The notes under the pieces: generated by a model
What the model was told of the DNA's origin: nothing
What the model saw: the letters and a program-made list of their open reading frames with translations, nothing else
The model's database searches: none
Made by a program: the position numbers and the translations under genes
Assembly (NCBI RefSeq): GCF_003363265.1
Contig: NZ_QRBF01000001.1
Location: forward strand, 1,086,451-1,150,450
Length of the DNA: 64,000 bases
Source: Dyella psychrodurans
Lineage (GTDB): Bacteria > Pseudomonadota > Gammaproteobacteria > Xanthomonadales > Rhodanobacteraceae
Direction of reading: 5' to 3'
Part shown: positions 16,428 through 52,542 of the stretch, piece by piece
Numbering within the stretch: the stretch's first letter is position 1
Layout of the letters: each line of letters begins with the position of its first letter

Positions 16428-16569
16428 GGAACCCTCACCCAATCGCCATACCTAACCGTCGACATGCCCTACCCCCTCGCCTACGTGCAGCAGGAGAGGG
16501 AGTGAAGTCAGCACGATGGCGGCGCCCACGATTGCGCAGTCCACCATGCAACGGACGGCGGAGGGTACA

Positions 16570-28773: not shown

Positions 28774-30303
28774 ATGCGTCCATTCGCCGTGACTGCGCTG
28801 TCGTTGACGTTAGCCTTGCTGATGACCCCAGCAGTAAGCAGGGCATCCGGCAAAACCAGCTTCAGCCAGGAAGACGCTGCATGGTTAAGGCGCGACGGCT
28901 TCGGACTGGATACGGCAACCGTGACGAGATATCGCGCGCTCGGCCGCAAGGCGTTATTGGAGAAACAACTCGACGATAGCCTCGGCGATACGCTTCCACC
29001 CGCCATCACCGCGCAACTGGCGTCCTACGAATCGTTCTCCACGCCGCTGGAACAACTGCTCACGTCGATACAACAGCAACAGCAGCAAATCAAAGCCATG
29101 CCCGACGGCCCTGAAAAAGCGGCCGTCAACAAGGCGCTGCAAGCGCACGGGAATCAGATCGGGCTGGAAGCGCAACAGGCCGAGCTGCTGCACGCGATTT
29201 ACGGCCCCAATCAACTGAAGGAACAACTGGTCTGGTTCTGGCTGAACCACTTCAGCGTCTATGCGCCCAAGGGGCGTGTGCGATGGGAACTGGCCGACTA
29301 TGAAGAAAACGTGATCCGTCCGCATGCGCTCGGCAAATTCCGCGATTTGGTCATGGCCACGCTGCAGAGCCCGGCCATGCTTGAGTATCTCGACAATGCA
29401 CAAAACGCCAAGGGGCATGTCAACGAAAATTACGCCCGTGAACTGATGGAACTGCATACGCTTGGCGTCAACTCGGGCTACACGCAGCAGGACGTTCAAC
29501 AACTTGCCCTGATCTTGACGGGGGTCGGCATCGCACCCGTCAACGGCCAACCGGAAAAGTTCGGCCCGAAAATGGCGCCGCTGGTCGTTCGCAACGGACT
29601 GTTCGAATTCAATCCGCAACGGCACGACTTCGGCGACAAGGTATTGCTCGGCAAAACGATTACGGGCAGCGGTTTTGACGAAGTCAGACAAGCCGTTGAC
29701 CTGATTGTGCGCCAACCCGCCTGCGCTCAATTCGTCTCGCGGAAATTGGCGGAGTATTTTGTTTCCGACAATCCACCGCCTGCGCTGGTCGCGAAGATGG
29801 CCGCCACCTTCCGTCGCACGGACGGCGATATCGCGCAGGTCGTTCGCACGATGTTCGAGTCGCGCGAATTGCTTGCCGGCTCGGGAAAGAAGTTCAAGGA
29901 CCCCATGCAATTCGTGGTGTCGTCGGTACGCCTGGCTTACGACGGCACGCCTATCGCCAATGCGCAACCGCTGGTGGGCTGGCTCAACCAGCTCGACGAG
30001 CCGCTGTTTGGCCGCATCACGCCCGACGGCTGGCCGCTCGACAATGAAAGCTGGTCCAGCTCCGGGCAGATGGCCAAACGCTTCGATATTGCGCGAGCCA
30101 TTGGCACCGGCAACAACCAGCTGTTCACGCCCTTGGGCAGCACAGCGCGCGGCGCGGGCTTTCCGATGCTGACAACGCGCCTGTATTACGACGCCATCGA
30201 GCCCACCTTGTCGCAAGCGACACACGACGCGCTGGTCAAGGCAACCTCGCAACAGGAATGGAACACCTTCCTGTTGTCGTCGCCGGATCTCAATTACCGC
30301 TGA
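28774..30303 (+). CDS. DUF1800 family protein (second copy)
   Basis: About 509 residues from the ATG at 28774, which opens a clear signal peptide (MRPFAVTALSLTLALLMTPA). An ATG at 28654 has a stronger ribosome site (GGAG, seven bases) but adds 40 residues of non-protein-like leader. Closely similar to the product at 25796 along its length: AAWLRRDGFGLDTATV, EQLVWFWLNHFSVYAPKG, NENYARELMELHTLGVNSGYTQQDVQQLA, TPDGWPLDNESWSSSGQMAKRFDIARAIG. It therefore arose by duplication around the DUF1501 gene. It ends seven bases from the convergent DUF1579 gene. Confidence 0.9.
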   Translation: MRPFAVTALSLTLALLMTPAVSRASGKTSFSQEDAAWLRRDGFGLDTATVTRYRALGRKALLEKQLDDSLGDTLPPAITAQLASYESFSTPLEQLLTSIQQQQQQIKAMPDGPEKAAVNKALQAHGNQIGLEAQQAELLHAIYGPNQLKEQLVWFWLNHFSVYAPKGRVRWELADYEENVIRPHALGKFRDLVMATLQSPAMLEYLDNAQNAKGHVNENYARELMELHTLGVNSGYTQQDVQQLALILTGVGIAPVNGQPEKFGPKMAPLVVRNGLFEFNPQRHDFGDKVLLGKTITGSGFDEVRQAVDLIVRQPACAQFVSRKLAEYFVSDNPPPALVAKMAATFRRTDGDIAQVVRTMFESRELLAGSGKKFKDPMQFVVSSVRLAYDGTPIANAQPLVGWLNQLDEPLFGRITPDGWPLDNESWSSSGQMAKRFDIARAIGTGNNQLFTPLGSTARGAGFPMLTTRLYYDAIEPTLSQATHDALVKATSQQEWNTFLLSSPDLNYR

Positions 30304-30310
30304 GCAGATT

Positions 30311-30778
30311 TCAACCGACGTGATCCACGCGACGATATTCGCCGCGCATCACCTGCTCCCAGTTCACTCCGCCATCGAAGGAGCTTTCCAGCCTCAGGCG
30401 ATAACTTCCATCGCCGGGAACGTCGTAGGTATGCCTGGTCTGCCCTCGTGACGAAGTTCGAAGGAACACCAACCGGTTTCCGTCCCAATGGCCAAGCGCC
30501 GGCTGCGCCGGCGCGTAACCGTAACTGTCGAACCAATACAGCGCATATTCGCCAGGCTCAGGACCCGCCATGAACACCGCATGCGCTTGCAACGATGAAG
30601 CACCATCGCGTTCCTCGCGATAATCCTGCAACAGCACCTTCCCGCACAGATCGAAATGGGCATTGACGCGTGCGGTCGCCGCGCCACCTTGTCCCCACCG
30701 CGTGGTGGCGATCAGTTCGTCGCCCGCCCAATCGCCGGCCAGCGCGGCGAGCACATCGTTTCCTTCCAGAGACGTCAT
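30311..30778 (-). CDS. DUF1579-like protein
   Basis: 155 residues, predicted beta-barrel resembling DUF1579 lipocalin-like proteins: LAALAGDWAGDELIATTRWG, GKVLLQDYREERDG, YALYWFDSYGY, DGSYRLRLESSFDGGVNWEQVMRGEYRRV. No signal peptide or membrane segment. It lies six bases after the sensor-domain gene on the same strand and is likely cotranscribed with it and PadR. Function unknown; binding of a hydrophobic ligand would be a guess. Confidence 0.8.
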   Translation of the reverse strand: MTSLEGNDVLAALAGDWAGDELIATTRWGQGGAATARVNAHFDLCGKVLLQDYREERDGASSLQAHAVFMAGPEPGEYALYWFDSYGYAPAQPALGHWDGNRLVFLRTSSRGQTRHTYDVPGDGSYRLRLESSFDGGVNWEQVMRGEYRRVDHVG

Positions 30779-30784
30779 GGGCCA

Positions 30785-31717
30785 CTACTCCTTCGTGGCG
30801 TCGGCAACCAACAAGTGCCTTGCAATCTGTCCGTGCAGATAGCCGAGAGCGCGCACCATGTGCAAGGTCACAAACAGCAGCACCACACCCAGGGCACACA
30901 CGAAGAAAGCACCCGGCCACCCGTTGAGCCAATTCACGGAGTTGCAGATCCAGACCGAGGCGTCGCACGTGTTGTTGTAGTCGAAATGGTAAGTTTCCGC
31001 TGCCAGCTTCACGATCGGCGCAGCCGCAAAACCGATCGAGATGCTCAACATCGTGATGGTGAGGGTGAAATAAACGATGCCCAGCGGCAGCATCATCAGC
31101 ATGTAGAACAACGTGCCCCATGTGCGCGGATCGCTGAACATCGTACCGATGCGCTTCCAGAACGACATCCCGTGCGTGGAAAACGACGGCCTGCGCGGCA
31201 TGCGCACGCCAAGCATGGTTTCCACGATGCGCCCTTCCACCAGCGATAGCACCCGCACCGAGCCAAAAAACAGCACGATGAACGGGATGCCGATAATCAG
31301 CACCGCCAATCCAAAAGACAGCGAAATGCCCGTAACCGCCCAGGTGAAATAGAAGATGCCGGTCGCCAACGCCAGCACCATGTAAAACAAGGCACCGTAG
31401 GTTCGCGGATCCGCACCAACACCGAAGAAGCGCCCGAAGGCGGAACGATGCTTCCGCGGCAATGGCGGACGCAGCGCGCGCTGGATCTTGATCTCCTGAT
31501 CGCGATAAATGGCCGCGACTTCTTCCGGAGCGCCATAGCTGCCCACTACTTTGGCGAGCATGTCGGCTTCGCTACGGCCCGGCTGTTCGGCCAGCTCGGC
31601 ACGCAGATGTTCCTCCGCGTCGTACAACGCATCCTGGATCAGTGCAGGATCGGCGCCGCGCAGAGCCGCCCGCAGCTGATCCAGATATTCCGTAATCGTT
31701 CGCGGTGTGTCTGTCAT
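30785..31717 (-). CDS. HAAS/sensor-like multi-span membrane protein
   Basis: 310 residues. A cytoplasmic helical N-terminal domain (ITEYLDQLRAALRGADPALIQDALYDAEEHLRAEL) is typical of HAAS/DUF1700 proteins that accompany PadR regulators. Two repeats follow, each with DPRTYGALFYMVLALATGIFYFTW or DPRTWGTLFYMLMMLPLGIVYF plus hydrophobic spans, as in the Sensor domain found with histidine kinases, and a last span near residue 275. AAGGAG precedes the ATG at 31717, which overlaps the padR stop (ATGA). No kinase domain is attached, so it may be a membrane partner of PadR regulation. Confidence 0.85.
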   Translation of the reverse strand: MTDTPRTITEYLDQLRAALRGADPALIQDALYDAEEHLRAELAEQPGRSEADMLAKVVGSYGAPEEVAAIYRDQEIKIQRALRPPLPRKHRSAFGRFFGVGADPRTYGALFYMVLALATGIFYFTWAVTGISLSFGLAVLIIGIPFIVLFFGSVRVLSLVEGRIVETMLGVRMPRRPSFSTHGMSFWKRIGTMFSDPRTWGTLFYMLMMLPLGIVYFTLTITMLSISIGFAAAPIVKLAAETYHFDYNNTCDASVWICNSVNWLNGWPGAFFVCALGVVLLFVTLHMVRALGYLHGQIARHLLVADATKE

Positions 31718-32079
31718 CGCAACTCTCCTTGCAAAACCATGTCGACCGAATCGCGTGTGGCCTCCCACGCTGCGATCCACTCACGCAGTACTTCACGTCC
31801 AAACTTCGTGATCCGGTAATAGCGGCGCGGCGGTCCGCTCACCGACGGCTCCACCTCGCTACCCAGCAATCCGTTGGCTTCGAGATTTCGCAGCACCGGA
31901 TACAACGCACTCTGCTTGCCGGCCAGCGCCCCTTCCCCAAGCTCCTCCAGCCGCTTGGCAATCTGGTAGCCGTACAACGGCTGCCGCGACTGCCCAAGCA
32001 CGGCCAGCAGCACCAGGGAAACCGTGCCGGTCGAAAGCTCTTTCTGAAACTTCTTGAGTTGGCCCGCGCTATCGTCCAC
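31714..32079 (-). CDS. PadR-family transcriptional regulator
   Basis: 121-residue winged-helix protein: VSLVLLAVLGQSRQPLYGYQIAKRLEEL, GKQSALYPVLRNLEANGLLGSEVEPSVSGPPRRYYRIT is the classic PadR recognition helix and wing. A C-terminal helix follows for dimer formation. Its stop overlaps the start of the sensor-like membrane protein, the usual PadR-HAAS pairing. It probably represses its own operon; no palindrome is obvious just upstream. Confidence 0.92.
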   Translation of the reverse strand: MDDSAGQLKKFQKELSTGTVSLVLLAVLGQSRQPLYGYQIAKRLEELGEGALAGKQSALYPVLRNLEANGLLGSEVEPSVSGPPRRYYRITKFGREVLREWIAAWEATRDSVDMVLQGELR

Positions 32080-32098
32080 GGCTGACCCGCTCTTCCGC

Positions 32099-32383
32099 TT
32101 ATGTTGGAGTGCACTGTAGTGTGAAGTAAATACTAGTGCATGGGCCTGAAGTCATGGCTGGCACGGCCCAGGTGTATGGGCATGACACCAATGTATGTAC
32201 ACGTTGTACAAACATTGGTGTCAGAGGGGGTGCCTTATAACCATAATGGCAATCCATCACCGTCAACGTCGGTGCGCTCGGCGCTACCACATATCCCGAC
32301 TCTGTTGCTTTGAGCGCCATATCTTCAGAAACGCCCCGACGTTTCATGACGTCAACAAACTCCGTGGCCAGCTCTTTTAACAT
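32099..32383 (-). CDS. Possible small gene with C-terminus derived from a palindromic repeat
   Basis: Up to 94 residues. The first ~45 residues (MLKELATEFVDVMKRRGVSE...) look protein-like and the ATG follows a G-rich run. The rest (FVQRVHTLVSCPYTW) is the translation of the palindrome at 32183-32223, so the original gene may have been cut by the repeat. No domain is recognised. Coding status is doubtful. Confidence 0.3.
   Translation of the reverse strand: MLKELATEFVDVMKRRGVSEDMALKATESGYVVAPSAPTLTVMDCHYGYKAPPLTPMFVQRVHTLVSCPYTWAVPAMTSGPCTSIYFTLQCTPT
32183..32223. repeat. Palindromic repeat A at the left edge of the AT-rich island
   Basis: Perfect 12-bp arms TGACACCAATGT and ACATTGGTGTCA with a 17-base centre containing TGTACA-like halves. 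The sequence is closely related to the palindrome at 36996-37034; both are preceded by TGGGCATG. The rest of the 422-base gap between padR and the HEAT gene holds only the doubtful small ORF. Confidence 0.85.
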
Positions 32384-32501
32384 CGCCCCCCTTATGTGTA
32401 GTTACTGGGCTACCACTTGGCGTGGCTTGCTGTATTACTCGGCACAATCGACATCGCCCCGAAGTTGAACAGCACAAAGCTTCAGAACCTCTTGTCCCGC
32501 C

Positions 32502-34091
32502 TTAGAGGCGGCTAATCGATTCCTGAATTGCCTGAAATGTTTGACTGTCCATTTCAGCACGACGACTTTGAAGTAGATCTAAGAGGCGTGTCCGCGTACT
32601 AGATCCTAGGGGCGCATAACGGTTGCTATCCACAACCCAATCGCCTAGCAATGTCACGAACCATAGGAGTTCAGATTCTTTGGAAGGATGGAAATCCAAA
32701 ATCAAGCTCAGCCTATCCCAATGGTTCAGTTCTCGAAGCAGGCCTCGTAGATGATCATGTGTCGTGGATGTTGCCGCATCGGAAGTAACTGTGGCCAACA
32801 AGCGGCGCTTGTCCAACGGAAGTGCACCCTGCCTTACCGCAATAGCAATTGCGCGCTGCACTCGTAAGCCTTTGCTGGTTACGAGTCGCAAGAACTCTTC
32901 GTCGGAAAGCGTCCCTCCTGCTTTGGTAATACCGTTTAAGCAGAGCATCCGAACGATGCCTTTGGGATAAGCAAGCCATCGCTTGAGCCGCACGACGTCT
33001 TCGGCTTGCGCGTTGTCCGCGACCCCTGCCAAGGCACCAAGCGTCGGTCGCTCTATGTCGCCATCGATGACTGAGCGCCAATAGTCGATTGCCTGTTCGC
33101 CGCACCTTTCGCGCAACAGAAAAGCTGCAAAGGACCGCACACCTGCTGATGGGTCACATAGCATTCGGTGGAGCAGCTCTCTGGGCACGTCTGAGTCAAG
33201 TGTTGCCAGCGCACGAAGCGATTCACGCCTAACTACAGGATGGGGCGCCTCTACACCAAAATTAGCTAACGCCTTTGTTCGCGCTTCATCGCAGCGATGC
33301 AACGAGTAACGAAGCGCATGAAACGCGATCCGAGGATTAGGATCCCTGATTGCCGAATCCAATAGATCGATCGATAGCGAGACATTACCCTCGATCGATT
33401 TTTCGTACGCCCATGCCCTGACGGATGTATTCGGGCTATGAAGAAGACTCAGCAACCATGGCAATGAATCCTGCCGCAGCATCCACCCCTCGATGTGCTC
33501 GCTAAACCAATCCTTGGCAACCCGGCCGCGGGATTGGAGTCGGATCGCGAGCGGCCAAACCGCTACAACATCACTATCCGTGCAACGATCAAGAAGTTGG
33601 CTGGCGACCCATTGCGCGGCCTTCCTAACTTCAGGAACCCAGTCCGCGCATCGAATCAGTGCGGCAGCCAAAGTCAATCGCCCCGAATACTTTGGGAGTG
33701 ATTCAAGCACCTCTTGTCGAACTCGCCCATTGCTATGACTGGCAGCAACAAAGAGCAAAGACTGCCTCAGCGATGAGGTCATATTCGACGAGGTGATATC
33801 CGCCACTGCGGTAGATGGCCAATTACGAAACGGCGTGCCGTAGTAAGACCTTAGTCGCTCATCGATATCGAAAAGCCGTTCGGCTGGTAGATCTTCCAGG
33901 AAGGCAAGTACTTGAACCCGGTCTCCCTGGGCATCAGCAGGCAACATAAATCGAAGCGCCTGGTCCAAGAGCACTCCGGGTAAGAAATTCCCGGTATCCA
34001 AGTGCTCGCCCTTCGGCACCTGTGGATCAAGGAATTTAAAGAATCGCTTCCAGTTCATCGATGACACACGCTCTCCCAACGGCGACTCCAA
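32502..34091 (-). CDS. HEAT-repeat protein of unknown function
   Basis: 529 residues (or 518 from an ATG at 34058). The preferred start is TTG at 34091, seven bases after AGGAG. From about residue 110 on there are repeated helical pairs of HEAT/armadillo type (RQEVLESLPKYSGRLTLAAALIRC, SVRAWAYEKSIEG, NPRIAFHALRYSLHRC, HPVVRRESLRALATLDSDVP, GVRSFAAFLLRERC). No signal peptide or membrane span. HEAT proteins are scaffolds or, in some bacterial islands, immunity or defence proteins. It ends a minus-strand group with two small membrane proteins, 15 bases after the zinc-ribbon protein. Codon use is AT-richer than flanking genes. Confidence 0.8.
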   Translation of the reverse strand: MESPLGERVSSMNWKRFFKFLDPQVPKGEHLDTGNFLPGVLLDQALRFMLPADAQGDRVQVLAFLEDLPAERLFDIDERLRSYYGTPFRNWPSTAVADITSSNMTSSLRQSLLFVAASHSNGRVRQEVLESLPKYSGRLTLAAALIRCADWVPEVRKAAQWVASQLLDRCTDSDVVAVWPLAIRLQSRGRVAKDWFSEHIEGWMLRQDSLPWLLSLLHSPNTSVRAWAYEKSIEGNVSLSIDLLDSAIRDPNPRIAFHALRYSLHRCDEARTKALANFGVEAPHPVVRRESLRALATLDSDVPRELLHRMLCDPSAGVRSFAAFLLRERCGEQAIDYWRSVIDGDIERPTLGALAGVADNAQAEDVVRLKRWLAYPKGIVRMLCLNGITKAGGTLSDEEFLRLVTSKGLRVQRAIAIAVRQGALPLDKRRLLATVTSDAATSTTHDHLRGLLRELNHWDRLSLILDFHPSKESELLWFVTLLGDWVVDSNRYAPLGSSTRTRLLDLLQSRRAEMDSQTFQAIQESISRL

Positions 34092-34106
34092 TTCCCGACT
34101 CCTAAG

Positions 34107-34439
34107 TTAGCTATCGGAAGGAATTCCGGAAAGCGGCACACCGCAATGCATGCACCTTCGCGCGAACCCATTGGACCACCAAGAAACAAAGAATAGATGT
34201 CTGCATCGCGGACAGGAGCTATAGCCATAGGCGATACCTGTCAATGCGAAGAGGCCCATGTACGTCAGCGCGACATATTTCAATATTTGCTCAGATCGAA
34301 GCGTGACTGACGCGATTGCCATGAACGGCAGCCACGCGGCGAACATCCCAAACGCAATTCGGCGTCGCAACCGAATACGCCGGAGCCCTTCCTCCACGGC
34401 GGGCGAAATCGCGTCGCCATTTATATATTTTCCGTTCAT
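34107..34439 (-). CDS. Small membrane protein with C-terminal zinc-ribbon-like motif
   Basis: 110 residues from the ATG at 34439, which follows GGGGAG by five bases. Basic segment RRIRLRRRIAFG leads into two hydrophobic spans (about residues 27-47 and 54-71), then a CPRCRHLF ... RRCMHCG pair of Cys-x2-Cys knuckles that could bind zinc. No family recognised. It lies 15 bases before the HEAT-repeat gene and 32 bases after another membrane protein, so the three probably form an operon. Confidence 0.72.
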   Translation of the reverse strand: MNGKYINGDAISPAVEEGLRRIRLRRRIAFGMFAAWLPFMAIASVTLRSEQILKYVALTYMGLFALTGIAYGYSSCPRCRHLFFVSWWSNGFARRCMHCGVPLSGIPSDS

Positions 34440-34471
34440 ACGCGCTCCCCACTTCACGTACTGATCAATGT

Positions 34472-34963
34472 CTATTGAGCCTTTAACCGCTCAATGAAGT
34501 ATTCACGACCTGAAAGGTTGGGGTAAATGACAAGCTTACGCCCCTGATAGAAGTGAAGAATCATCTGCCGACCTTTCGCCTCCATCGACTGGAGTTGGTC
34601 CAGGCCATATTCCACTGTGCTCAGCGGCCACCGTCTTATTTCAATGGTTCGCGCTCTCAGTATCACTCGATAACTACTGAAGTAGGTCGACATGACGAAG
34701 CAGAGGATCGCGATCGCGATGGGGGTGTAAGAAAGTATCTCTAAGTTGCCGGCATAGCGGTGGTTGCGCGGCTCAAACCACTCGTAAACGCCAACGCCTA
34801 GAAAAATTAGCCCCATGATCGGCATGAGAAACTTTGGCGCCACGTAACGGAGAGTGGGATTGCCATCTGCGTCTTCCTCTCTTTCTCGGCCCCAAACAGC
34901 CAGCCACATCAGGAAAGAGAACAAAGCCGATCCGATGGCGCTCAATAGAATTGCTCGTAGCAC
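34472..34963 (-). CDS. Membrane protein with PH-like C-terminal domain
   Basis: 163 residues, GTG start preceded by GGGAGG. Three hydrophobic spans at about residues 3-24, 44-62 and 75-96, followed by a soluble part (SSYRVILRARTIEIRRWPLSTVEYGLDQLQSMEAKGRQMILHFYQGRKLVIYP) whose beta pattern is like bacterial PH domains. First gene of the putative three-gene minus-strand operon in the AT-rich island. Function unknown. Confidence 0.7.
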   Translation of the reverse strand: MLRAILLSAIGSALFSFLMWLAVWGREREEDADGNPTLRYVAPKFLMPIMGLIFLGVGVYEWFEPRNHRYAGNLEILSYTPIAIAILCFVMSTYFSSYRVILRARTIEIRRWPLSTVEYGLDQLQSMEAKGRQMILHFYQGRKLVIYPNLSGREYFIERLKAQ

Positions 34964-35164
34964 TGGTCCCCCTCCCTGTCCTTAACTTGGACACAAAATC
35001 GGCACACAGGCCGTATAACCCGCCGCCGTACGTCGCCTGCCTCTCCCGGTCAAAAGCGGACTGCATGAGATTGCCGTTTGGCCGCCTTGGACGCAATGGC
35101 CACGAGGCGCCCAAGGCAAATATTCCTGTATTCTCGGCAAATTAACAGGATGGGGAGTTATCCA

Positions 35165-35755
35165 ATGACGGTTCGGGAACTTGTTTCGGTTGGGCTGCGA
35201 TTCTTTGCGCTCTGGTTGCTACTCGCCGCGTTCCAGACATTTGAAATGCTGATGTCCGTGCAGAGAACAATGCACGCGGAAGCGAACTTAGTAGGCATTC
35301 GAACAGTCGTGAGCAGCATTGGACTGGGGATTGCTTTACTCGTTGCCACGGCAGCACTGTTATGGATTACGTGTCGCCCGTTGGGGTACGTGATCACGCG
35401 AGGCGCAGTGTCACCTCAGAACATACATTTGACGCCCCACGGCATCGTTACCGCAGGCTGCGCCCTATTGGGCCTTTGGGGACTGAAAGAATCCTTGATT
35501 CCGCTTATAAAAATTTGGGTATTGGGCGCACTTAACAGTCAGCTGTCCGACACATCAATCTTAGGCACGCTCTCAATAGAACAAAAAATCAACGCAACTT
35601 CTCAGCTAGCAGAACTGGGCTTATCTTTGTTCTTTCTCTGCCGCCCTTATCAAATCAGTGCGCTTGTGCTCCGTGCCGGGAGCAAAAAAAACCCACTTGC
35701 GCCTGCCAATGCACCTCTGCATGACACTTCTCATCCTTCTGAATCGCAGGAATAA
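35165..35755 (+). CDS. Multi-span membrane protein, unknown
   Basis: 196 residues from the ATG at 35165, seven bases after GGGGAG; the open frame extends upstream without support. Hydrophobic spans at about residues 9-30, 45-68, 94-112 and 148-162. Last ~30 residues are polar (GSKKNPLAPANAPLHDTSHPSESQE). No known domain. It is divergent from the three-gene group, about 200 bases apart, in AT-rich sequence. Confidence 0.7.
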   Translation: MTVRELVSVGLRFFALWLLLAAFQTFEMLMSVQRTMHAEANLVGIRTVVSSIGLGIALLVATAALLWITCRPLGYVITRGAVSPQNIHLTPHGIVTAGCALLGLWGLKESLIPLIKIWVLGALNSQLSDTSILGTLSIEQKINATSQLAELGLSLFFLCRPYQISALVLRAGSKKNPLAPANAPLHDTSHPSESQE

Positions 35756-35828
35756 GGTCTGAGACAAGGCAAACACAGTCGCCCGTCGAAGCGACTCAAT
35801 AAGAAATTAGTTGAGATCCGTCGAGACC

Positions 35829-35996
35829 ATGGAAGAACAGATCCCCTATAAAAATCGATCTCCCTACGGCTGGTGGATAGCTACGTATGTGCTTAGAGCA
35901 GCGTGGGACGACCAGGAGCCGCCCGCAGACGACAGCAAATGCTGCGCGTGGGAGAACACAATCGTCTTGCAGGCTTCGGATAGCGTTGTCGATTGA
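35829..35996 (+). CDS. Small DUF4288-like protein, perhaps truncated
   Basis: 55 residues from the ATG at 35829. PYGWWIATYVLRAAW ... CCAWENTIVLQASDS resembles the short alpha/beta layout of DUF4288 proteins, where a W-x-x-x-IVL strand is followed by a helix; here a stop comes right after the strand, so the C-terminal helix seems lost. No clear ribosome site. Similarity is judged by eye only. Confidence 0.4.
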   Translation: MEEQIPYKNRSPYGWWIATYVLRAAWDDQEPPADDSKCCAWENTIVLQASDSVVD

Positions 35997-36045
35997 GCAT
36001 GGACCTAAAGTCTAGTCACAAACCATATAAGGGCAGCACCTGCGA

Positions 36046-36729
36046 GTGAATGAAGCGGAATCAACTTCAGCTGCGCTTGAGTCCGATGGATTTGCGATCC
36101 TTTCATCGCTCGTATCTCACGCCGAGTGCGACAAACTCATCGAAGCTATAGCTGCGAACCCCGTTCGCGGGCCTGGTTCGCGAAGCCTGCTCGGCATCGA
36201 ACCTGTCTTACGCACTGGCGTCACGATTAAACGACATTCGTCGATAGAGGCCATTCTCAGTCCTCACTCGCAGCTCGTTCAATGCTCATTGTTCGCCAAA
36301 GAGACGACAACCAACTGGTCTGTTACCCCACACCAAGACTTAAGCATCCCAGTGCGGGAGCGTGTAGATAGTCCAGGCTGGACGGGATGGTCGAGAAAAG
36401 AAGGGGTGTGGTACGTCCAGCCACCTGAGTATGTTTTGGAGCAGCTCGTAGCTGTAAGACTTCAGCTTGATGATCACTCGTCGGAAACAGGGCCGCTTGA
36501 AGTCGTCCCGAAGACCCATTCACAAGGTCGGCTTTCAAACCCGGACATTCTTAAAAGCGCGTTGAGTGGAAAATGTAGTTGCGTTGTTCCACGCGGCGGC
36601 GCAGTAGTCATGCGCCCATTGCTAATCCACTCGTCGGGTAGGAGCCGCTCAGTTCGACCTAGGCGGGTATTGCACTTTCTGTTTGGCCCGCCTCTACCAT
36701 CCAACTTAGCGTGGGCCAACGCGTTCTAG
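36046..36729 (+). CDS. Phytanoyl-CoA dioxygenase (PhyH)-family Fe(II)/2-oxoglutarate oxygenase
   Basis: 227 residues, GTG start. The iron facial triad is visible as His96-x-Asp98 in TPHQDLSIP and distal His195 in PLLIHSSGRS, with an arginine about 11 residues later (RPRRVLHFLFG) for 2-oxoglutarate. LQLDDHSSETGPLEVVPKTHSQG is a typical PhyH core segment. Substrate unknown; such enzymes hydroxylate small molecules in secondary metabolism. Isolated in the AT-rich island and followed by a hairpin. The ribosome site is weak. Confidence 0.82.
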   Translation: MNEAESTSAALESDGFAILSSLVSHAECDKLIEAIAANPVRGPGSRSLLGIEPVLRTGVTIKRHSSIEAILSPHSQLVQCSLFAKETTTNWSVTPHQDLSIPVRERVDSPGWTGWSRKEGVWYVQPPEYVLEQLVAVRLQLDDHSSETGPLEVVPKTHSQGRLSNPDILKSALSGKCSCVVPRGGAVVMRPLLIHSSGRSRSVRPRRVLHFLFGPPLPSNLAWANAF

Positions 36730-36746
36730 AGAGCAGCTCGTCAACG

Positions 36747-36773
36747 GCAGCTTCGATTGGACGAAGCTGCTTT
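36747..36773 (+). terminator. Terminator-like hairpin after the PhyH-like gene
   Basis: A 9-bp stem gcagcttcg / cgaagctgc with a six-base loop is followed by only three T residues, 18 bases after the stop codon. Confidence 0.5.
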
Positions 36774-36809
36774 GACACGTACTGGCATCTCGGTTTGCGA
36801 TTGATCTGA

Positions 36810-36972
36810 CACATACTTTGGTTGTCAAACGGCTAAATTTGCCAAAATTTGAACTTCCTAACCAATTGTTTTTCCTACCCCTGCACATACTTTGCTGTCA
36901 AACAGCAAGCAAAGTATGTGCACAGACGCTCAAACTGCACACACTTTGGTTATCAAAAGTGCACATACTTTG
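36810..36972. repeat. Cluster of five CACATACTTTG 11-mers
   Basis: CACATACTTTG occurs at 36810-36820, 36884-36894 and 36962-36972, inverted at 36910-36920, and with one change (CACACACTTTG) at 36938-36948. Most are followed by TGTCAAA or ATCAAA. The 36884/36910 pair forms an inverted repeat. There is no gene in this 412-base gap. Confidence 0.8.
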
Positions 36973-36976
36973 ATGT

Positions 36977-37034
36977 CATGCCCATGAGTGGGCATGGCAC
37001 CAATGTTTGTACCCGGTGTACAAACATTGGTGCC
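36977..37034. repeat. Composite palindrome B at the right edge of the AT-rich island
   Basis: Hairpin CATGCCCA / TGGGCATG (36977-36984, 36989-36996) directly followed by a perfect 17-bp inverted repeat GGCACCAATGTTTGTAC / GTACAAACATTGGTGCC with a five-base centre (36996-37034). Its core matches palindrome A at 32183-32223. Confidence 0.88.
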
Positions 37035-37141
37035 AGCCAAACTGACGCAGTTGCGACGTTCTGCGCTGATCGGCGCGGCCATTTCACAGGAGCCATCGCC
37101 ACGCGGACAGCACCTGAGAAGCACGGCGGCCACAATCAGCG

Positions 37142-38002
37142 TCAGGCGGCAGGAACCGGCGGAATAGGTCCGGCGTTGAAATCTGCTGAGTGACTGATGT
37201 CCCGCCAACGCTCGGCCTCGCTGGAGCGATGTGCCTCCACCATGGCGTAGTAGTCGCAAGCGCTGGTGCCGATGAGAAGATGTGCAGGTACCTGCCCTGC
37301 ATCGGCAAGGCGCAGCACAATCTGCGCGATGCGCGCGGGATCGATGGGTTCGTTACCCCACAGGCCTTCCATGGACTTGATGGCCGCCCCAACAGAGGGT
37401 TCATAGTCCGGCATGATCGCCGGCCGCTGCTGTGTCGCACGCGTACCCCAGTTTGTTCGAATGGCCGCGGGCTCCAGTGCAACCACCTTGACTCCGAAGG
37501 GTGCCGTCTCTTGCGCCAGACTCTCGGTGAATCCACTGACCGCCCATTTCGCCGCGTGATACGACGCCGAGCCGGCGGTGGCGAGGCGCCCACCCACGGA
37601 GGAGATCTGCATGATCGTTCCGCTACGCTGCGTGCGCATGATCGGCAGCGCAGCACGCGTCAGATTGACGACACCATAGAAGACGGTGTCGACCAGGGTT
37701 TTGAAATCCGCCGAACTGGTTTCCTCAAAGGGGCGAACGTCGCCGTAGCCGGCGTTGTTCACCAGAACATCAAGACGTCCAAAGCGCTCAACCGCCAAGG
37801 CGACGGCCGCCTGCGCCTGGGCTTCATTCGTGACGTCGAGCTGCGTGGTAAAGATGTTCTCCCCGTATTGCTCGCACAACTCAGCGAGCGGGTCCGTGTT
37901 TCGCGCGGTGGCGAGAACCTTGTGGCCGCTCGCGCAGGCCACCTCGACGATGTCACGACCCAAGCCGCTTGCGCTTCCTGTTACCAACCAAACTTTCGAC
38001 AT
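37142..38002 (-). CDS. Short-chain dehydrogenase/reductase
   Basis: 286 residues. NAD(P) motif VTGSASGLGRDIV at residues 7-19, NNAGYGDVRP, catalytic Ser in MQISSVGGR and Tyr/Lys in SASYHAAKWAV. Classical SDR acting on an unknown alcohol or ketone. I chose the ATG at 38002 with GGAG six bases upstream. It follows a truncated tetR gene by 30 bases on the same strand, a remnant of a regulator-enzyme operon. Normal high-GC composition resumes here after the AT-rich island. Confidence 0.9.
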   Translation of the reverse strand: MSKVWLVTGSASGLGRDIVEVACASGHKVLATARNTDPLAELCEQYGENIFTTQLDVTNEAQAQAAVALAVERFGRLDVLVNNAGYGDVRPFEETSSADFKTLVDTVFYGVVNLTRAALPIMRTQRSGTIMQISSVGGRLATAGSASYHAAKWAVSGFTESLAQETAPFGVKVVALEPAAIRTNWGTRATQQRPAIMPDYEPSVGAAIKSMEGLWGNEPIDPARIAQIVLRLADAGQVPAHLLIGTSACDYYAMVEAHRSSEAERWRDISHSADFNAGPIPPVPAA

Positions 38003-38032
38003 GAAATGCTCCACTACAGACTGACTAGGCAG

Positions 38033-38413
38033 TCATTTAATGATGTTTAAAAAAAGCCATTGGCTGATGGCTTTCCAGAAGGTCTCGAAGCCTGCTTCAC
38101 GATAGTGCGCCGCATGTTTGGGCTCGCGAATCATGAAGTCCATTGTGGTGGCGGCCATGGCCTCGACGATGGCGCCAACGAAAGCCAAACTCCTGCTTTT
38201 CAAAACGCCTTGTTGTCGTACTTGATCAATAACACCCAGCGTCGGCGCGACAGCCTTCAATGCGCGCTCTCGCGATGCCGCAGAGATCTCAACGGAAACG
38301 GTAAGCTGTGCCAGGACCTGTTGCTTTTCAGAAAACGCGACACCCCAGTCGCTCCATCGCGTCCAGACGTGATGGAGCTGTTTTTTGGGATCTTTCTCGG
38401 GCAGTTGGGCCAA
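38033..38413 (-). pseudogene. TetR-family regulator lacking its DNA-binding domain
   Basis: 126 residues similar in style to the C-terminal ligand-binding part of TetR proteins (DPKKQLHHVWTRWSDWGVAFSEKQQVLAQLTVSVEISAASRERALKAV). The N-terminal helix-turn-helix, about 70 residues, is absent, and the frame upstream runs into the hydrolase gene. The only start is a TTG, though GGAGG precedes it. It probably marks a deletion junction, so the product cannot bind DNA in the usual way. Confidence 0.75.
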
Positions 38414-38454
38414 TACCTCCGCCTCTCCCCAGGGAGTCGACAGTTCGATCTGTA

Positions 38455-39474
38455 TTACAGGTGATCGGCATCGATGACGGCCTGCGTGAACGCCTGCGGT
38501 GCTTCTTCCGGCAGGTTATGGCCGATGCCACCGGTAATCAGGCGGAACTCATACTTGCCCACAAATTTTTTGGCATACGCCTCTGGCTGCGGGTGCGGTG
38601 CGCCATTCGCATCACCTTCCATGGCGATCGTGGGTACCGTGATGGCAGGGAATTGAGCCAGCTGCTTTTCCTGGGCTTCGTATTTCGCTTCGCCCTTGGC
38701 CAGGTTCAACCGCCAGCGATAGTTATGGACGGTGATGGCAACCTGATCCGGATTGTTCAGCGCGGCCGCACTGCGCTCGAAGGTGGCGTCGTCAAAGCCC
38801 CATTTCGGTGAGGCCTGCTGCCAGATCAATTTGGCGAAGTCATGGCGGTATTTGTCGTAGCCGATTCGGCCACGCTCGGTGGCGAAGTAATACTGATACC
38901 ACCATTGCAGCTCGGCCTTAGGCGGTAGCGGGGTTTCGCCGGATTCCTGGCTGCCGATGAGATAACCGCTCACGGTCACCAACGCCTTCACGCGCTCCGG
39001 CCACAGCGTCGCGACAATGTCCGCCGAGCGCGCACCCCAGTCAAAGCCGCCAAGCACCGCACGCTTGATATGCAACGCATCCATGAAGTCGACAACATCC
39101 CTGGCCACCGCGACGGGCTCGCCGTTGCGCACGGTGCTATCGGACAGGAAGTGGGTGTCGCCGTACCCACGCGTGTAGGGGACAAGCACTCGATAACCCT
39201 TTGCCGCCAGCGCGGGCGCGACCGCTTCATAGCTATGGATGTCATAGGGCCACCCATGCAAAAGAATCACGACTGGACCATTGGCCGGTCCCATCTCCGC
39301 GTAAGCGACGTCCAGAACGCCGGCGTGGACATGCTTCAGCGGCCCCCAGGGGTCCTGTGATGTAACGGGTGTCGTAGCCGGCTGAGGTGATAGGCCTTCG
39401 GCATGTGCAACCGACGTGAGGCCGGCCAAGCTGAGGGTAATGGCGGCCGTGAGTGCCAAGTACGTGTGCTTCAT
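38455..39474 (-). CDS. Exported epoxide-hydrolase-like alpha/beta hydrolase
   Basis: 339 residues with signal peptide MKHTYLALTAAITLSLAGLTSVAHA. Oxyanion motif HGWPYDIHSYE at about 73-83, nucleophile Asp145 in LGGFDWGARSADIV, and catalytic His in GGIGHNLPEEAP near the C-terminus. An aspartate nucleophile places it with epoxide hydrolases and haloalkane dehalogenases rather than esterases; the HGWP motif favours epoxide hydrolase. Periplasmic site inferred. It abuts the truncated tetR gene, 41 bases apart, suggesting a recombination junction. Confidence 0.87.
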   Translation of the reverse strand: MKHTYLALTAAITLSLAGLTSVAHAEGLSPQPATTPVTSQDPWGPLKHVHAGVLDVAYAEMGPANGPVVILLHGWPYDIHSYEAVAPALAAKGYRVLVPYTRGYGDTHFLSDSTVRNGEPVAVARDVVDFMDALHIKRAVLGGFDWGARSADIVATLWPERVKALVTVSGYLIGSQESGETPLPPKAELQWWYQYYFATERGRIGYDKYRHDFAKLIWQQASPKWGFDDATFERSAAALNNPDQVAITVHNYRWRLNLAKGEAKYEAQEKQLAQFPAITVPTIAMEGDANGAPHPQPEAYAKKFVGKYEFRLITGGIGHNLPEEAPQAFTQAVIDADHL

Positions 39475-39696
39475 GGTGATCTCCGGAATGCGTGCGTGGT
39501 TGCAAGGGCAGATTTAAGAAGTGCTTCCCTGTGCACATAGGAAACCGCGGCGACGTATCCCGACTATGTCCGGGAGAGGCCAAAAGCCATCAGAACGTGT
39601 CTCAGGCAGGCTCTGAAACATTTCGATACAAAACTCACAGCCGAAATTACGGACACTACTTGCCTGGACTGCCCCGGAAATGACGGTGCTTCCAGC

Positions 39697-39862
39697 CTAG
39701 GATTGGACTGCCAGCGTTGATGGTCGTACCAGGCCACCCGAGCCTGAGTGGCCAGTTCGACATCCTAGATGCGTGGCCAGGAGCGGGGATGGGTGAGCTC
39801 GGCCTTGTAGAGTCCATTGATGGTCTCGCCCAGCACGTTGCCGTTGCAGACGCGCACGGGCG
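39697..39862 (-). mobile_element. Remnant of an IS3-family transposase (C-terminal end)
   Basis: Translated on the minus strand in the frame CNGNVLGETINGLYKAELTHPRSWPRI (stop) DVELATQARVAWYDHQRWQSNPRLE, this matches the DDE C-terminal end of IS3-group OrfB proteins (usual form ES-NGLYKAE ... VELATLEWVAWFNHRR). It is interrupted by a TAG stop and lacks the rest of the element. A second short similarity (IFVERWSYERS) at about 39948-39998 may be a further fragment. The rest of the 553-base gap holds nothing that I recognise. Confidence 0.7.
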
Positions 39863-40027
39863 TAAAGGACTCCATAGTCTCTACCTAGCCTGCTTCGATA
39901 CCGGCTAGAAGAAGTGAACGGCTGGATCAGGATGCGCGTTGCGCGCATCCTGATCTTTCATATGACCAACGTTCCACAAAAATTGCTCGAACGCTTGAAT
40001 CCCGAGTCAGTGCCGACTCTGACTCGT

Positions 40028-41485
40028 TCAAGCGCGAGCCGGATGCGTTTGACCGAGGCTTTCTACCGGTGCTTTGTGCGGAACGAAAGCCAATACCAGC
40101 CATGCCGTCAGCGCGATCAAGTCCAACCATGCCAGCCAGTCTCCCCATTGCGCATAGAGCGTGTGCGTTTCGTGCAGCGGAAGATCGCCCACCAATTCGG
40201 CATCGGCGCCTTCGCTGGAAGCCTCTGCCACGACACGGCCGCGGTCGTCGCTGAGCGTGAGCCGGCCGGCATGCGCGGCGCGCGCGACGGCGAAGCCGCT
40301 TTCCACGCCGCGCATGATCGCAATGCGACTGTGTAGCCAGCCATCCACCGTAAAATCCGACGCAGGCACCAGCAACAGTTGCGCGCGGCGTGCGGCGTAA
40401 GCGTCGCCAATGTCATGGAAATCCATGTCCTTGCAGATCGCCAACCCGATGCGCGGACCGCCTTGAAGCATGGTGTAGTTGTCGCCCGGTATAAAAGGGT
40501 CCATGCCGGGGAGCAAATGGTGTTTGTTGTAGGTGGCCGGAGATGTGGCGCCAGGTTGAAACACCATCAGCATGTTGCGATGTCCGTGCGGATCGCCGTA
40601 GAAATCAACGCCGGAAGCCACGATCAGATCGCGCTGTTTCGACATTTGAGAAAAGGCGGGAATGCTCGTATCCGCGGCGGCGAATGTCGTTTCCGTATCC
40701 AGCACGATATGTGCGCCGTCGTTGGCGAGACGACCGAATGCTTCCATGTAACGTGCTTCGAGAGCTTGCCCCTTCGGCTCGCTCAATGCCGCATCGGTCG
40801 GCTTTTGCAGCGATACCAGGCCAATGCGCATCGTTCCGGTCGCCGGAGCCTGAAGTCGCCAGCCGCCATACGCCACAGTGCCGGCCACCAAAATAGCCGC
40901 AAGTACGGCCACCGTGACACAACTGCGTTTGGAAGCGTGCGGCGTCGCCTGCAACGCGATGGCCGTGGGCACTAGCAGCAACAGAAAACCGATGCCCCAA
41001 ATGCCGGTTATCGCCGCAATTTGAATGACGGCCAGCGCATCCATTTGCGTGTAGCTGATATTGGAAAACGTGGCGTGCGGCGAAAGCAGATTGGTAACGT
41101 ATTCGATGGCTACCCACATCGTCGGCACCGCCAATGCGGCGGCCAGCGTATGACCGCGCAGCAGCAATCGCCGATACAGCAGCACGCACAGCATCAACAT
41201 GACGCCCGATGCGCTAATCGCATACACATCGAAAAGCCAGGGCAGGCCGATATACGTGTGGAGATAAGTCCAGACGCTAAACGAGCCTGCGGTATACGCG
41301 ACAAAAGCCGACAAGGCGGCCGAACGCGCTCGAACCCGTGGTGCGAGCCATAGCACAGGCAACGGTGCGAGCCATGTCAGCCACCACCGCGGATGTATAC
41401 CGCTACCGAACCACCAGCACAGCGCGGAGAGGGCGGTCGCCGCAAACCAGGTCTGCAGCGCGGAGTAATCATGCTTTGATGCCAT
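40028..41485 (-). CDS. Apolipoprotein N-acyltransferase-like membrane nitrilase
   Basis: 485 residues. N-terminal half has about six hydrophobic spans (residues 12-205); the C-terminal half is a nitrilase domain with triad Glu265 (LDTETTF), Lys321 (YNKHHLLPG) and Cys351 (LAICKDMDFH), the layout of Lnt. A final span lies near residue 460. It differs from housekeeping Lnt in context: it overlaps the upstream tetR gene by 17 bases (GGAGG before the ATG) and sits among detoxification genes, so it is probably an accessory paralogue acting on another acyl or amide substrate. Confidence 0.85.
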   Translation of the reverse strand: MASKHDYSALQTWFAATALSALCWWFGSGIHPRWWLTWLAPLPVLWLAPRVRARSAALSAFVAYTAGSFSVWTYLHTYIGLPWLFDVYAISASGVMLMLCVLLYRRLLLRGHTLAAALAVPTMWVAIEYVTNLLSPHATFSNISYTQMDALAVIQIAAITGIWGIGFLLLLVPTAIALQATPHASKRSCVTVAVLAAILVAGTVAYGGWRLQAPATGTMRIGLVSLQKPTDAALSEPKGQALEARYMEAFGRLANDGAHIVLDTETTFAAADTSIPAFSQMSKQRDLIVASGVDFYGDPHGHRNMLMVFQPGATSPATYNKHHLLPGMDPFIPGDNYTMLQGGPRIGLAICKDMDFHDIGDAYAARRAQLLLVPASDFTVDGWLHSRIAIMRGVESGFAVARAAHAGRLTLSDDRGRVVAEASSEGADAELVGDLPLHETHTLYAQWGDWLAWLDLIALTAWLVLAFVPHKAPVESLGQTHPARA

Positions 41486-42050
41486 CGAGCAACCTCCTCA
41501 AGGATTGCAAGTAGAAGGCGCGAAACTGCGCCTCGTCATAGCTGAAACGTCCGGCGCGATAGAGCGCGATCAAGCCGTGTTGATGCGCCCAGATCGTCAT
41601 CGTGACGTCGTGCGGATCGTCTTGCTTCAACAAGCCTTGGGCCATGCCTTCGATCACGGCGTCAAGTGCGACATTGAAGGTGGGTGAAAGGCGCGCATGA
41701 AAATCTTCCGGGTAACGCCGCGCATCGTCGCGACGCACCGAAAAGGCGTGATCGAATAAATGCGGATGCGTCAGCGCGTAATCCAGATAGGGTTCCATTA
41801 ACGCGTTCAGCCGCTTGAGCACGTCCCGGCTTCGCGCGCGCGATTTCCATTCGTGCGCGACGCTTTGGAAGCTGTCGTCGGAAAGCTTTTTCAGCAGCGC
41901 GTCCCGATTCGGAAAATGGCGATAGATCGCCATGGGCGTAATGCCCACCGCATCGGCTACCCGGCGCATGGTCACCGCGTCGGCGCCTTCGCGTTCAAAC
42001 AGCGCGTGCGCAGCCTTGAGAATCTTTTCGGGGGTCGTCAGGCGGGTCAT
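41469..42050 (-). CDS. TetR-family transcriptional regulator
   Basis: 193 residues from the ATG at 42050. HTH: KILKAAHALFEREGADAVTMRRVADAVGITPMAIYRHFPNRDALLKKL. The ligand-binding domain includes LDYALTHPHLFDHAFSVRRDD. The start has no Shine-Dalgarno sequence and lies inside a perfect palindrome, suggesting a leaderless or near-leaderless autoregulated message. It overlaps the Lnt-like gene and likely controls it. Confidence 0.9.
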   Translation of the reverse strand: MTRLTTPEKILKAAHALFEREGADAVTMRRVADAVGITPMAIYRHFPNRDALLKKLSDDSFQSVAHEWKSRARSRDVLKRLNALMEPYLDYALTHPHLFDHAFSVRRDDARRYPEDFHARLSPTFNVALDAVIEGMAQGLLKQDDPHDVTMTIWAHQHGLIALYRAGRFSYDEAQFRAFYLQSLRRLLDGIKA

Positions 42051-42068
42051 GTATACACTGTATACATG
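42048..42068. promoter_or_regulatory. Palindromic operator over the tetR start codon
   Basis: CATGTATAC-ACT-GTATACATG is a perfect 9-bp inverted repeat with a 3-base centre that includes the tetR initiation codon. Size and place fit a TetR-dimer operator for autorepression. Confidence 0.75.
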
Positions 42069-42289
42069 ATGGCCGCGACGCGGCAATACTTACTAATGGG
42101 CTAGTCGGGTCGGGTCACAAAGCGACCGCTGGGGAAAGGCGAGCCGCGACTTTGGAGGCAGTTTGTTGGCCGCTAGAGGCGGTTTTTTGTTCGCTCGGGC
42201 GTTCCAGGCCAGGTACGCCCCGAATCGGTAGATACGTGAAGGTGCGCGCGCCTTGAGGGGACTGGAAATAACCTCCTTTAAGTAGGGTG

Positions 42290-42318
42290 TTGACAATATG
42301 GTGTATATGCACCATAGT
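42290..42318 (+). promoter_or_regulatory. marR promoter with embedded operator
   Basis: TTGACA (42290-42295) and CATAGT (42313-42318) are 17 bases apart, with ATGGTG-TATATG-CACCAT (42298-42315) filling the spacer as a 6-bp-arm palindrome. The MarR start codon follows eight bases later. A repressor bound here would block RNA polymerase. Confidence 0.7.
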
Positions 42319-42325
42319 TCTGTGC

Positions 42326-42799
42326 ATGAAGACCAAAGCACCCGTTAAGTCCGAGACTCTCACCTCCATGGTCAGCGAGGTAACGGAGTACTGCCTGATG
42401 ACGCGCAGCCGTCGTATTTCGCGCGTTGTGACGAGCATTTATGACGAGGAACTTCGACCGTTCGGCTTGAGTTCCTCGCAGTTTTCTCTGCTCGTACTGA
42501 TTGCCAGGTTGAGCGGCGCAAGCCGCGCCGAAATCGGCCGCGCCAACTTCCAGGAGCGCTCCACATCCACCCGCAATCTGCAATTGGTGCTGGATGAGGG
42601 ATGGGCAGAAGAAGTGATGCCTGAAAAGGGCCGCAGCCGCCCTATCGTGATTTCCAAAGCCGGACGCGATCTGCTTGCCGTGGCCATGCCCGCGTGGCGA
42701 AGCGCACAGGCGCAGGCTCGGCAGTTACTGGGCGATAACGGCGCTTCTGCCATAGTCCAGCTATCCGCCCGCTTGCCGGTTGAAGAACTGGCTGGCTAA
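42326..42799 (+). CDS. MarR-family transcriptional regulator
   Basis: 157 residues from the ATG at 42326, the first codon after the embedded-operator promoter; the short leader has no ribosome site, so leaderless-type translation is possible. Winged helix: LSSSQFSLLVLIARLSGASRAEIGRANFQERSTSTRNLQLVLDEGWAEEV, then KGRSRPIVISKAGRDLL as the wing. It precedes the nitrilase gene by 51 bases and probably regulates itself, nitrilase and the NmrA-like gene in response to a small ligand. Confidence 0.88.
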   Translation: MKTKAPVKSETLTSMVSEVTEYCLMTRSRRISRVVTSIYDEELRPFGLSSSQFSLLVLIARLSGASRAEIGRANFQERSTSTRNLQLVLDEGWAEEVMPEKGRSRPIVISKAGRDLLAVAMPAWRSAQAQARQLLGDNGASAIVQLSARLPVEELAG

Positions 42800-49884: not shown

Positions 49885-50042
49885 TCGATGCGAAGAGTAT
49901 GCCCCGCGTTGCTGACATCCGTGCAAGATGGCATCACGACGCCCCAAAGCAGCCGCTGGCGTCACGCAGAAGGCACGCCTTGGCTCGTTATTCGGAACTG
50001 CGGGTCGCTATGAGGTGGCGCAGGACAATCTAAACAGGCTAT

Positions 50043-50441
50043 TTATTTCGCCGACGATGTTTCTTTATGGGGGTCTCGTGCGTCCGCCCAGTCGAGGAGA
50101 GATAGAAAGACCGTCCTCAATCCTTTCCCCTGATCGGTCAGGCGATATTCGACCCTTGGGGGAACCTGCGGGTATATCGTCCGTGCAATGATCCCGTCTC
50201 GTTCCAGTTCACGAAGATGCTGTGTGAGCATTTTCTGCGAGGCTTGTGGAATCGCTCGCTCGAGATCCGAAAATCTCATGGTCTCTTCTGCACTCAGATG
50301 GGCCAGGATAGGCATCTTCCAGCGGCCATCGATAGAGCGAAGCACATCCGCCAAACGGGATGCGCAGAGCATTCGGTACCTGCAAAGCTCCGGGTCTTTT
50401 GCGTCTTCCGGATTTTCCACTTTGATTGTCGTGCTTACCAT
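50043..50441 (-). CDS. HxlR-family transcriptional regulator
   Basis: 132 residues: CRYRMLCASRLADVLRSIDGRWKMPILAHLSAEETMRFSDLERAIPQASQKMLTQHLRELERDGIIARTIYPQVPPRVEYRLT is the full HxlR winged helix, with the KW-I-L and VPP-VEY-LT marks. Divergent from an alpha/beta hydrolase gene, 104 bases apart, which it probably controls in response to a reactive compound. Confidence 0.93.
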   Translation of the reverse strand: MVSTTIKVENPEDAKDPELCRYRMLCASRLADVLRSIDGRWKMPILAHLSAEETMRFSDLERAIPQASQKMLTQHLRELERDGIIARTIYPQVPPRVEYRLTDQGKGLRTVFLSLLDWADARDPHKETSSAK

Positions 50442-50545
50442 TTCGTGGGTACCCCACTTAAAAGTGCGTACTTCTCTTCTGTTCGATGGACATCTACGTT
50501 AGCCACTTAGCCGATTCTTTCTATCGGCACAGAATCGAGAAGACA

Positions 50546-51406: not shown

Positions 51407-51575
51407 GCTCCAACGCGCGCGCAGCCTGCACGGCCGCGCGTGCGTCCATGTTGTTTGAGCGGAAACAGGGCAAGACTCGAAGTCGATGCAACACACTTCC
51501 GCCCAGGCCGTGCATGCAGAATTGCCAGCACGATGAGATCGTTAGCTGTCTACAGCGCAGTAATTCTCAGAAAGA

Positions 51576-52472: not shown

Positions 52473-52542
52473 GATCAACATCTCCAGAGTTCTGTGGAGA
52501 CAAATCTCCATGCTTGATCTATGCTAGTAAAGTAGTGAGATT

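Follow-up and report, generated by a model that had tools for sequence, protein, structure and literature searches.

What is the AT-rich block that interrupts a 64,000-nucleotide stretch of the Dyella psychrodurans genome beside a padR-family regulator gene? This block, which we call island A (positions 32177–36984 of that whole stretch, the window, from which all coordinates given without another locus are counted), is a real, horizontally acquired element of a known class, the Tn7-like transposons, without a transposase of its own. Very probably it is a nonautonomous Tn7-like transposon whose relatives, equipped with TnsAB, TnsC, and TniQ, target a motif upstream of padR and insert with their palindromic end facing that gene. 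The observations behind this are the two ends of A and their inverted repeat, a fixed spacing from the motif, variation at the same site among relatives, and linked tnsAB–tnsC–tniQ genes in six of those relatives; A itself contains no tns genes.

Island A (4,808 bp) has a GC content of 0.526, the lowest in the window for a segment of that length: none of the equal-length segments outside it reaches so low a value (n = 4,958, in 10-base steps), and the runner-up, near 53.5 kb, has 0.547. In 1-kb steps, GC is 0.52–0.55 from ~32.0 to 37.0 kb and mostly 0.56–0.64 in the 10 kb on each side. GC at third codon positions is 0.53–0.63 in the island genes versus 0.73–0.76 in padR and its neighbor. A preliminary description of this DNA had proposed an AT-rich island with shifted codon use at ~32.1–37.1 kb, and these comparisons bear it out. 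Further GC dips (0.51–0.56 in several 1-kb steps) occur at 50000–57500, where a search with profiles of the transposon ends returned no ends of A's family.

What marks the borders? Closely related palindromes had been reported at both edges, and they are real: they lie at 32183–32223 (41 bp) and 36995–37035, within a direct repeat (32177–32224 and 36989–37036) that is 90% alike across 48 nt. The half-site GTACAAACATTGGTG, at up to three mismatches, has four matches in the window, all within the two palindromes, a number that 0 of 100 shuffles reach. In the whole 4.5-Mb genome, the four palindrome matches are the only ones with zero or one mismatch, and five more places have two. It is extremely unlikely that the palindromes are an ordinary chromosomal PadR operator or a repeat of the repetitive extragenic palindromic (REP) or bacterial interspersed mosaic element (BIME) type beside unrelated AT-rich genes. 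The left palindrome does lie ~100 bp upstream of padR, as an operator could, but the half-site is confined to two genome places rather than spread over many intergenic copies, many relatives have padR and its neighboring motif without the palindrome, and the copies that relatives do have border DNA that varies between them.

The right edge also holds a feature on which the preliminary description was silent, a cluster of related 19-bp sites that spans 177 bp, with sites in both orientations (36808–36984; consensus used, TGYACAWACWTTGGTGTCA). The left end of A has a terminal inverted repeat, TGGGCATGACAYCAAWGTATGTRC (TGGGCATGACAYC...), in common with the final site of this cluster. Profiles compiled from 45 left ends and 18 right ends, those of the window among them, identify three ends in the window, all on the plus strand, with the remaining hits being submatches inside them. 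The left end of A (32177–32236; E = 3.7e-19) consists of the terminal repeat TGGGCATGACACC and inverted 19-bp sites that form the left palindrome. The right end of A (36808–36984; E = 2.7e-42) has sites at ~36810, 36882, 36904 (inverted), 36936, and 36960 and terminates in ...GTCATGCCCA. A second left end, LE′ (36989–37047; E = 1.5e-15), contains the right palindrome, is separated from A by TGAG, and belongs to the next element, B. As in Tn7-like transposons, each end of A is an array of like sites that terminates in an inverted repeat (at 32177 and 36984), and the 19-bp sites are putative TnsB sites. The two palindromes do not form a pair of attachment sites; they are the left ends of two successive elements, A and then B. 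The earlier suggestion that the edge repeat is a recombination or attachment site thus stands insofar as the repeat marks element edges, and falls insofar as it is a transposon end with site arrays, not a recombinase site. Integron cassettes with attC sites, which the hairpin and the unfamiliar genes had brought to mind, were considered by eye, with no attC model or integrase search run, and dropped because the ends are arrays with inverted termini and are linked to tns genes.

Where does A sit? The padR-family gene (31714–32079, minus strand; Pfam PadR, E = 3.4e-21) is the conserved neighbor of the motif ACTAGTGCATGGGCCTGAAGTCATG (32132–32156, plus strand), the proposed TniQ/TnsD target, whose core is near-invariant in 44 distinct loci (a nonrandom set of the window and mostly best-scoring relatives). 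Its ending, GAAGTCATG, is nearly invariant in these loci, and conservation drops immediately beyond; at up to three mismatches the motif has a single match in its own genome. Counting that genome, DNA of 30300–32100 is matched in 40 of 61 genomes and the padR-side DNA of 31700–32250 in 177 of 233 family genomes; among the matches listed, those on the padR side tend to halt near 32156–32162 or to continue into a left end. A left end lies 18–22 bp past the motif in 26 of the 44 loci, and exactly 20 bp past it in 14, so that insertion occurs at a fixed distance and in a fixed orientation beside a conserved signal, as expected of a Tn7-like element. The other 18 loci have no left end: some look element-free, three (in genomes G001, G002, and G004; Gnnn denotes a compared genome, G000 the window's own, and Lnnn a fetched locus) have other element ends further on or inverted, and one (G008) stops at a contig end. 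Loci without a left end retain the motif and not the palindrome, and the likely attachment signal is this separate motif beside padR. Horizontal acquisition, as the preliminary description had it, is supported by relatives in which this place is occupied by other DNA or has no such end.

The terminal-repeat pattern ties these ends to the padR site across the family. It has 86 matches in 53 of the 233 genomes, versus four for a reversed-pattern control, and for 74 of the 86, from 46 genomes, a padR site is no more than 50 kb away on the same contig. The window's genome has three matches, all of them those of the window. Three further features of these loci deserve mention. Around 32116–32137, and in relatives, many loci show an inverted repeat of the type AGTGTGAAGTTCACACT beside the motif, by eye a candidate PadR operator. 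In L071 (G002), a padR-site element lies in inverted orientation between two right-end arrays, at 828–1003 on the minus strand and 16483–16654 on the plus strand. L178 (G031) contains, at 10735–10789 and ~1.6 Mb from padR, a left-end-like sequence (profile E = 1.5e-11), possibly at another target.

Which enzymes could move elements with such ends? In G035, the 21 kb between a left and a right end encode a TniQ protein (Pfam, E = 3.7e-7), an AAA ATPase (AAA_22, E = 1.1e-6), and an 800-aa protein. A profile of five of these long (TnsAB) proteins matches, along its transposase part, the chain named Integrase in 9bw1 (E = 1.7e-40), and a TniQ profile matches TnsD of 8v32 and 9bw1 (E = 2.5e-20) and TniQ of 8fcu (E = 1.1e-19). 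We take 9bw1 and 8v32 to be complexes of a type I-B2 CRISPR-associated transposon (CAST), 9bw1 with fused TnsAB, and we read D441, D511, and E547, which are invariant in the five TnsAB sequences, as the DDE triad. TnsAB is matched in 32 of the 233 family genomes, with at least 54% identity in six of them: G035, G130, G201, and G123 (full length), G120 (broken at a contig end), and G202 (partly read). In each of the six, a padR site with a left end is found on the contig of TnsAB, at a distance of up to ~12 kb. The genes tnsAB, tnsC, and tniQ are common to the six, with homologues of the G035 proteins in the other five, and occur in the same order, reading towards padR. These elements have a fused TnsA–TnsB and a single TniQ/TnsD protein of more than 400 aa; no cas genes were noticed by open-frame inspection, in which no Cas models were run. 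Right ends were detected in G035, G130, and G123, and none in the DNA fetched for G201, G120, and G202. Beyond the padR-side host genes, few pairwise matches recur and the cargo differs: that of G035 includes an AbiL-like pair (AbiLi, E = 3.3e-69; AbiLii, E = 6.1e-13) and a serine recombinase gene. In the G201 element (L121), ~6.6–8.4 kb from the padR side, neighboring ATPase/nuclease and helicase genes look Gabija-like by eye.

The shared machinery also bears on the idea of a recombinase-type island, in which a tyrosine or serine recombinase, since lost, would have duplicated the palindrome, as a core site, into attL and attR. We consider this highly unlikely. The 48-nt repeat is indeed both direct and palindromic, and G035 does carry a serine recombinase gene, but that gene is unmatched in the other five elements, all of which share tnsAB–tnsC–tniQ. 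Moreover, the ends are inverted repeats with site arrays, some pairs of them flanked by 4-mer duplications (below), what is kept in loci without a left end is the motif and not the palindrome, and A has no integrase gene to go with an attL/attR core duplication.

Close TnsAB homologues are the exception among genomes with such ends: 40 of the 46 with terminal repeats near padR are without a TnsAB of at least 54% identity. The window's own genome has only a distant one (22% identity) on another contig (G000 C10, 257357–259432), with no terminal-repeat match there; it probably belongs to another Tn7-like element with a different site. Among 72,556 plasmid records, 39 match TnsAB, all at less than 60% identity and mostly under cyanobacterial names. 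In G251 (C2), off the padR contig, a terminal-repeat-like match at 9487 (two mismatches) and a TnsAB of 33% identity at 13369–15660 are ~4 kb apart; similar ends may serve a related lineage at a different site.

Does insertion at the padR site duplicate the target? We scored duplications with the termini TGGGCA and TGCCCA over 17 left–right end pairs, leaving out one-end loci, G104 (which has several ends and flanks that do not match by eye), and weak or degenerate right ends. The same 4-mer flanks the element in 9 of the 17 pairs (ATTG, TGTG, GTGG, CTTG, CCAT, TTCT, CTTG, CTTT, and CTTT), compared with 10 of 272 cross pairs, and none of 20,000 permutations equaled 9 of 17. One dropped pair, in G204 (right-end score 18.6), matches too (ATAC), which would make 10 of 18. 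The other eight of the 17 pairs, the window's included, are without a matching 4-mer. A 5-bp duplication was found in none of the 17. Shifted 5-bp readings do no better: with the element starting one base later, five pairs fit and four of the nine matching pairs fail, and with the element ending one base earlier, a single pair fits. In G182, which has a right end and no detected left end, the flank resumes like an element-free congener at position 17 past the motif (L190 versus L152, by eye), as against the usual left-end start after 20, which gives an overlap of 4; G186 and G199 resemble it with less clear alignments. From these sequences, the target duplication of the padR-site elements looks like 4 bp. 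With the 5-bp duplication of Tn7 relatives looked for and not seen, we class A not as a plain member but as a variant with the workings of a Tn7 relative. Matching 4-mers also occur in genomes without a close TnsAB (e.g., G107, G103, G200, G221, and G126), so transposase-less copies between matching duplications exist.

The right flank of A is mobile too. Element B, a remnant with the SDR gene, the tetR gene, and further genes, extends from 36989 to an approximate right border at 42243. Its segments 39898–42243 and 39996–42243 recur at 95% and 93% identity in G004 and G014, respectively, and four pieces of 37125–42146 recur, rearranged, in G001 at 91–95% identity; the padR flank of these three genomes is just 75–81% identical to the window's. 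G004 and G014 have the block in a padR-linked, end-marked array, where a right end (degenerate in G004) begins ~60 bp beyond it. The profile search found no right end of B in the window, where the block and LE′ are kept. In G007, the left end that faces padR is 83% identical to LE′ and the DNA that follows it (36989–37094), as expected if B was there first and A then entered between B and the motif. Looking in relatives for an empty site with padR next to the SDR and tetR genes, the comparison put forward in the preliminary description, would mislead because pieces of this block occur at the padR site in G001, G004, and G014.

Is A then a transposon in its own right, or a scar left when a larger element or tandem elements shrank by recombination between repeated ends, Tn7-like by descent only? 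We give the latter serious weight, at somewhat less than an even chance. It is compatible with a nonautonomous transposon as regards ends and site and differs on the origin of A itself. Tandem ends would supply the recombination substrates, and loss of an element through such recombination would explain the unmatched flanks of A. Flanks that fail to match in 8 of the 17 end pairs, the missing right end of B, and a third left-end site in A that is degenerate relative to those of relatives (by eye) point the same way. Against a scar, A has kept its two outer ends in good condition, and transposase-less copies between matching 4-mers, as noted above, do exist.

How could a nonautonomous Tn7-like transposon have come to this place? 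In Tn7, TnsD binds the attachment site, TnsC bridges, and TnsA and TnsB excise and insert the element (PMC10293859 and PMC11406308). By analogy, excision in the full-length relatives would fall to the fused TnsA–TnsB transposase, bound to the 19-bp site arrays at both ends, the TniQ/TnsD-type protein would recognize the conserved motif upstream of padR, and the TnsC ATPase would bridge transposase and target protein. The element would then insert at a distance of ~20 bp from the motif and turn its palindromic end to padR. Newcomers would enter between the motif and an older element, and arrays would result, such as A ahead of the B remnant in the window. A itself would have moved with another element's enzymes or lost its enzyme genes after insertion.

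Several points weigh against this account. A has no transposase gene, and its flanks (TGTA and TGAG) differ and show no 4-mer duplication, so that its own transposition is only presumed. The apparent 4-bp duplication departs from the 5 bp given in a review for all Tn7 relatives. The 800-aa fused protein of G035 has TnsA-like (E = 0.0045) and rve (E = 0.001) matches that are both under curated cutoffs. Binding of the motif by TniQ is putative, and the AlphaFold model of TniQ was poor (mean pLDDT 53) and was not used; nor was a Foldseek search with it, which gave no matches at E = 0.001 (best, TnsD of 8v32, E = 0.48). Of the terminal-repeat matches, 12 of the 86 are not near a listed padR site, either because they lie on a different contig or because the list has no padR place for that genome; in G031, such a match shares the contig with padR but is ~1.6 Mb away. 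The single orientation, too, has an exception, G002, where right-end arrays occur on either side.

What does A carry? Three genes on the minus strand are followed by three on the plus strand. The first encodes a HEAT-repeat protein (32502–34091; Pfam HEAT_2, E = 3.1e-14), with DNA 66–67% identical in G014 and G015. Next come a small protein with no Pfam match above cutoff (34107–34457) and a small membrane-like protein with subthreshold Pfam matches only (34472–34963); DNA of 34113–35269 is 84% identical in G007, as is that of the membrane-like gene. On the plus strand follow an open frame for a multi-span membrane-like protein (35165–35755) and a 55-aa open frame (35829–35996, with a longer frame from 35811), both without a Pfam match, and a PhyH-family dioxygenase-like protein (36046–36729; Pfam PhyH, E = 1e-15). 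Of the labels first given to these genes, HEAT and PhyH are confirmed by Pfam and are the only families to which the sequences can be assigned confidently; the zinc-ribbon, PH-like, multi-span, and DUF4288-like labels have no match above the curated cutoffs. The statement that no integrase or transposase lies inside holds for the island A proteins tested by Pfam, among which there is also no tnsA, tnsB, tnsC, or tniQ product. NCBIfam gave no match for the five cargo proteins tested. The sole PADLOC match among six island A proteins was to a HEAT-type model (E = 1.1e-6), which we do not take as a defense assignment. Rfam returned nothing at the gathering threshold over 31500–42500, and the 10 plasmid matches listed for the region each cover at most 5% of the query, all in the part with the SDR gene.

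How do the padR-site elements compare with known systems? They are closest to the TnsAB-fusion branch of Tn7-like elements (I-B2 and I-D CASTs, e.g., Tn7744/PmcCAST, and their CRISPR-free kin), in which, as in the six relatives, a fused TnsA–TnsB occurs with TnsC and a TniQ/TnsD of more than 400 aa. The six differ from TnsAB-fusion CASTs in having one TniQ and no cas genes noticed on inspection, and they attach at the padR side, whereas those CASTs lie beside a tRNA gene according to the accessible part of PMC11406308. The same text gives a 5-bp duplication for all Tn7 relatives (PMC11406308), unlike the 4 bp apparent here. Tn7 itself, at its glmS site, shares insertion at a fixed distance by a conserved signal and end-site arrays of three sites at one end and more at the other. 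Sequence similarity to Tn7 is low, however, its TnsA and TnsB are separate rather than fused, and its target lies at the 3′ end of a coding sequence instead of upstream of a gene. In the padR-site elements, the tns genes read towards the padR-facing end; in Tn7, the target-facing end is the opposite one. A 41-bp palindrome as the end that faces the target is a further departure from textbook Tn7. The cargo-rich Tn7-like transposons of Benler et al. 2021 have, in the accessible text, inverted site arrays and variable cargo with defense genes (PMC8649781), to which the AbiL-like pair of G035 can be compared. That survey, as far as its accessible text goes, was seeded on tnsB genes, and copies without tnsB, such as A, would presumably escape it (PMC8649781).

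A padR attachment site, an apparent 4-bp duplication, and a palindromic proximal end were not found described before in the accessible literature, which does not prove their absence from print; a literature match for "Tn7-like" with "PadR" was, in its accessible part, a paper on Bacillus cereus SJ1. It is possible, and we propose it only tentatively, that the Rhodanobacteraceae harbor a distinct TnsAB-fusion branch that homes upstream of a regulator gene, makes 4-bp duplications, has a fully palindromic proximal end, and maintains a chromosomal array of cargo islands, mostly transposase-less, that its few complete members mobilize in trans.

For the family, an anonymous AT-rich block becomes a defined hotspot, in which one 25-bp motif beside padR predicts variable cargo in many genomes, and the end profiles let cargo islands without a transposase gene be delimited. 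Should the 4-bp duplication hold up, Tn7 relatives would be less uniform in strand-transfer geometry than stated, and the TniQ of these elements might offer a new noncoding attachment motif for site-specific insertion.

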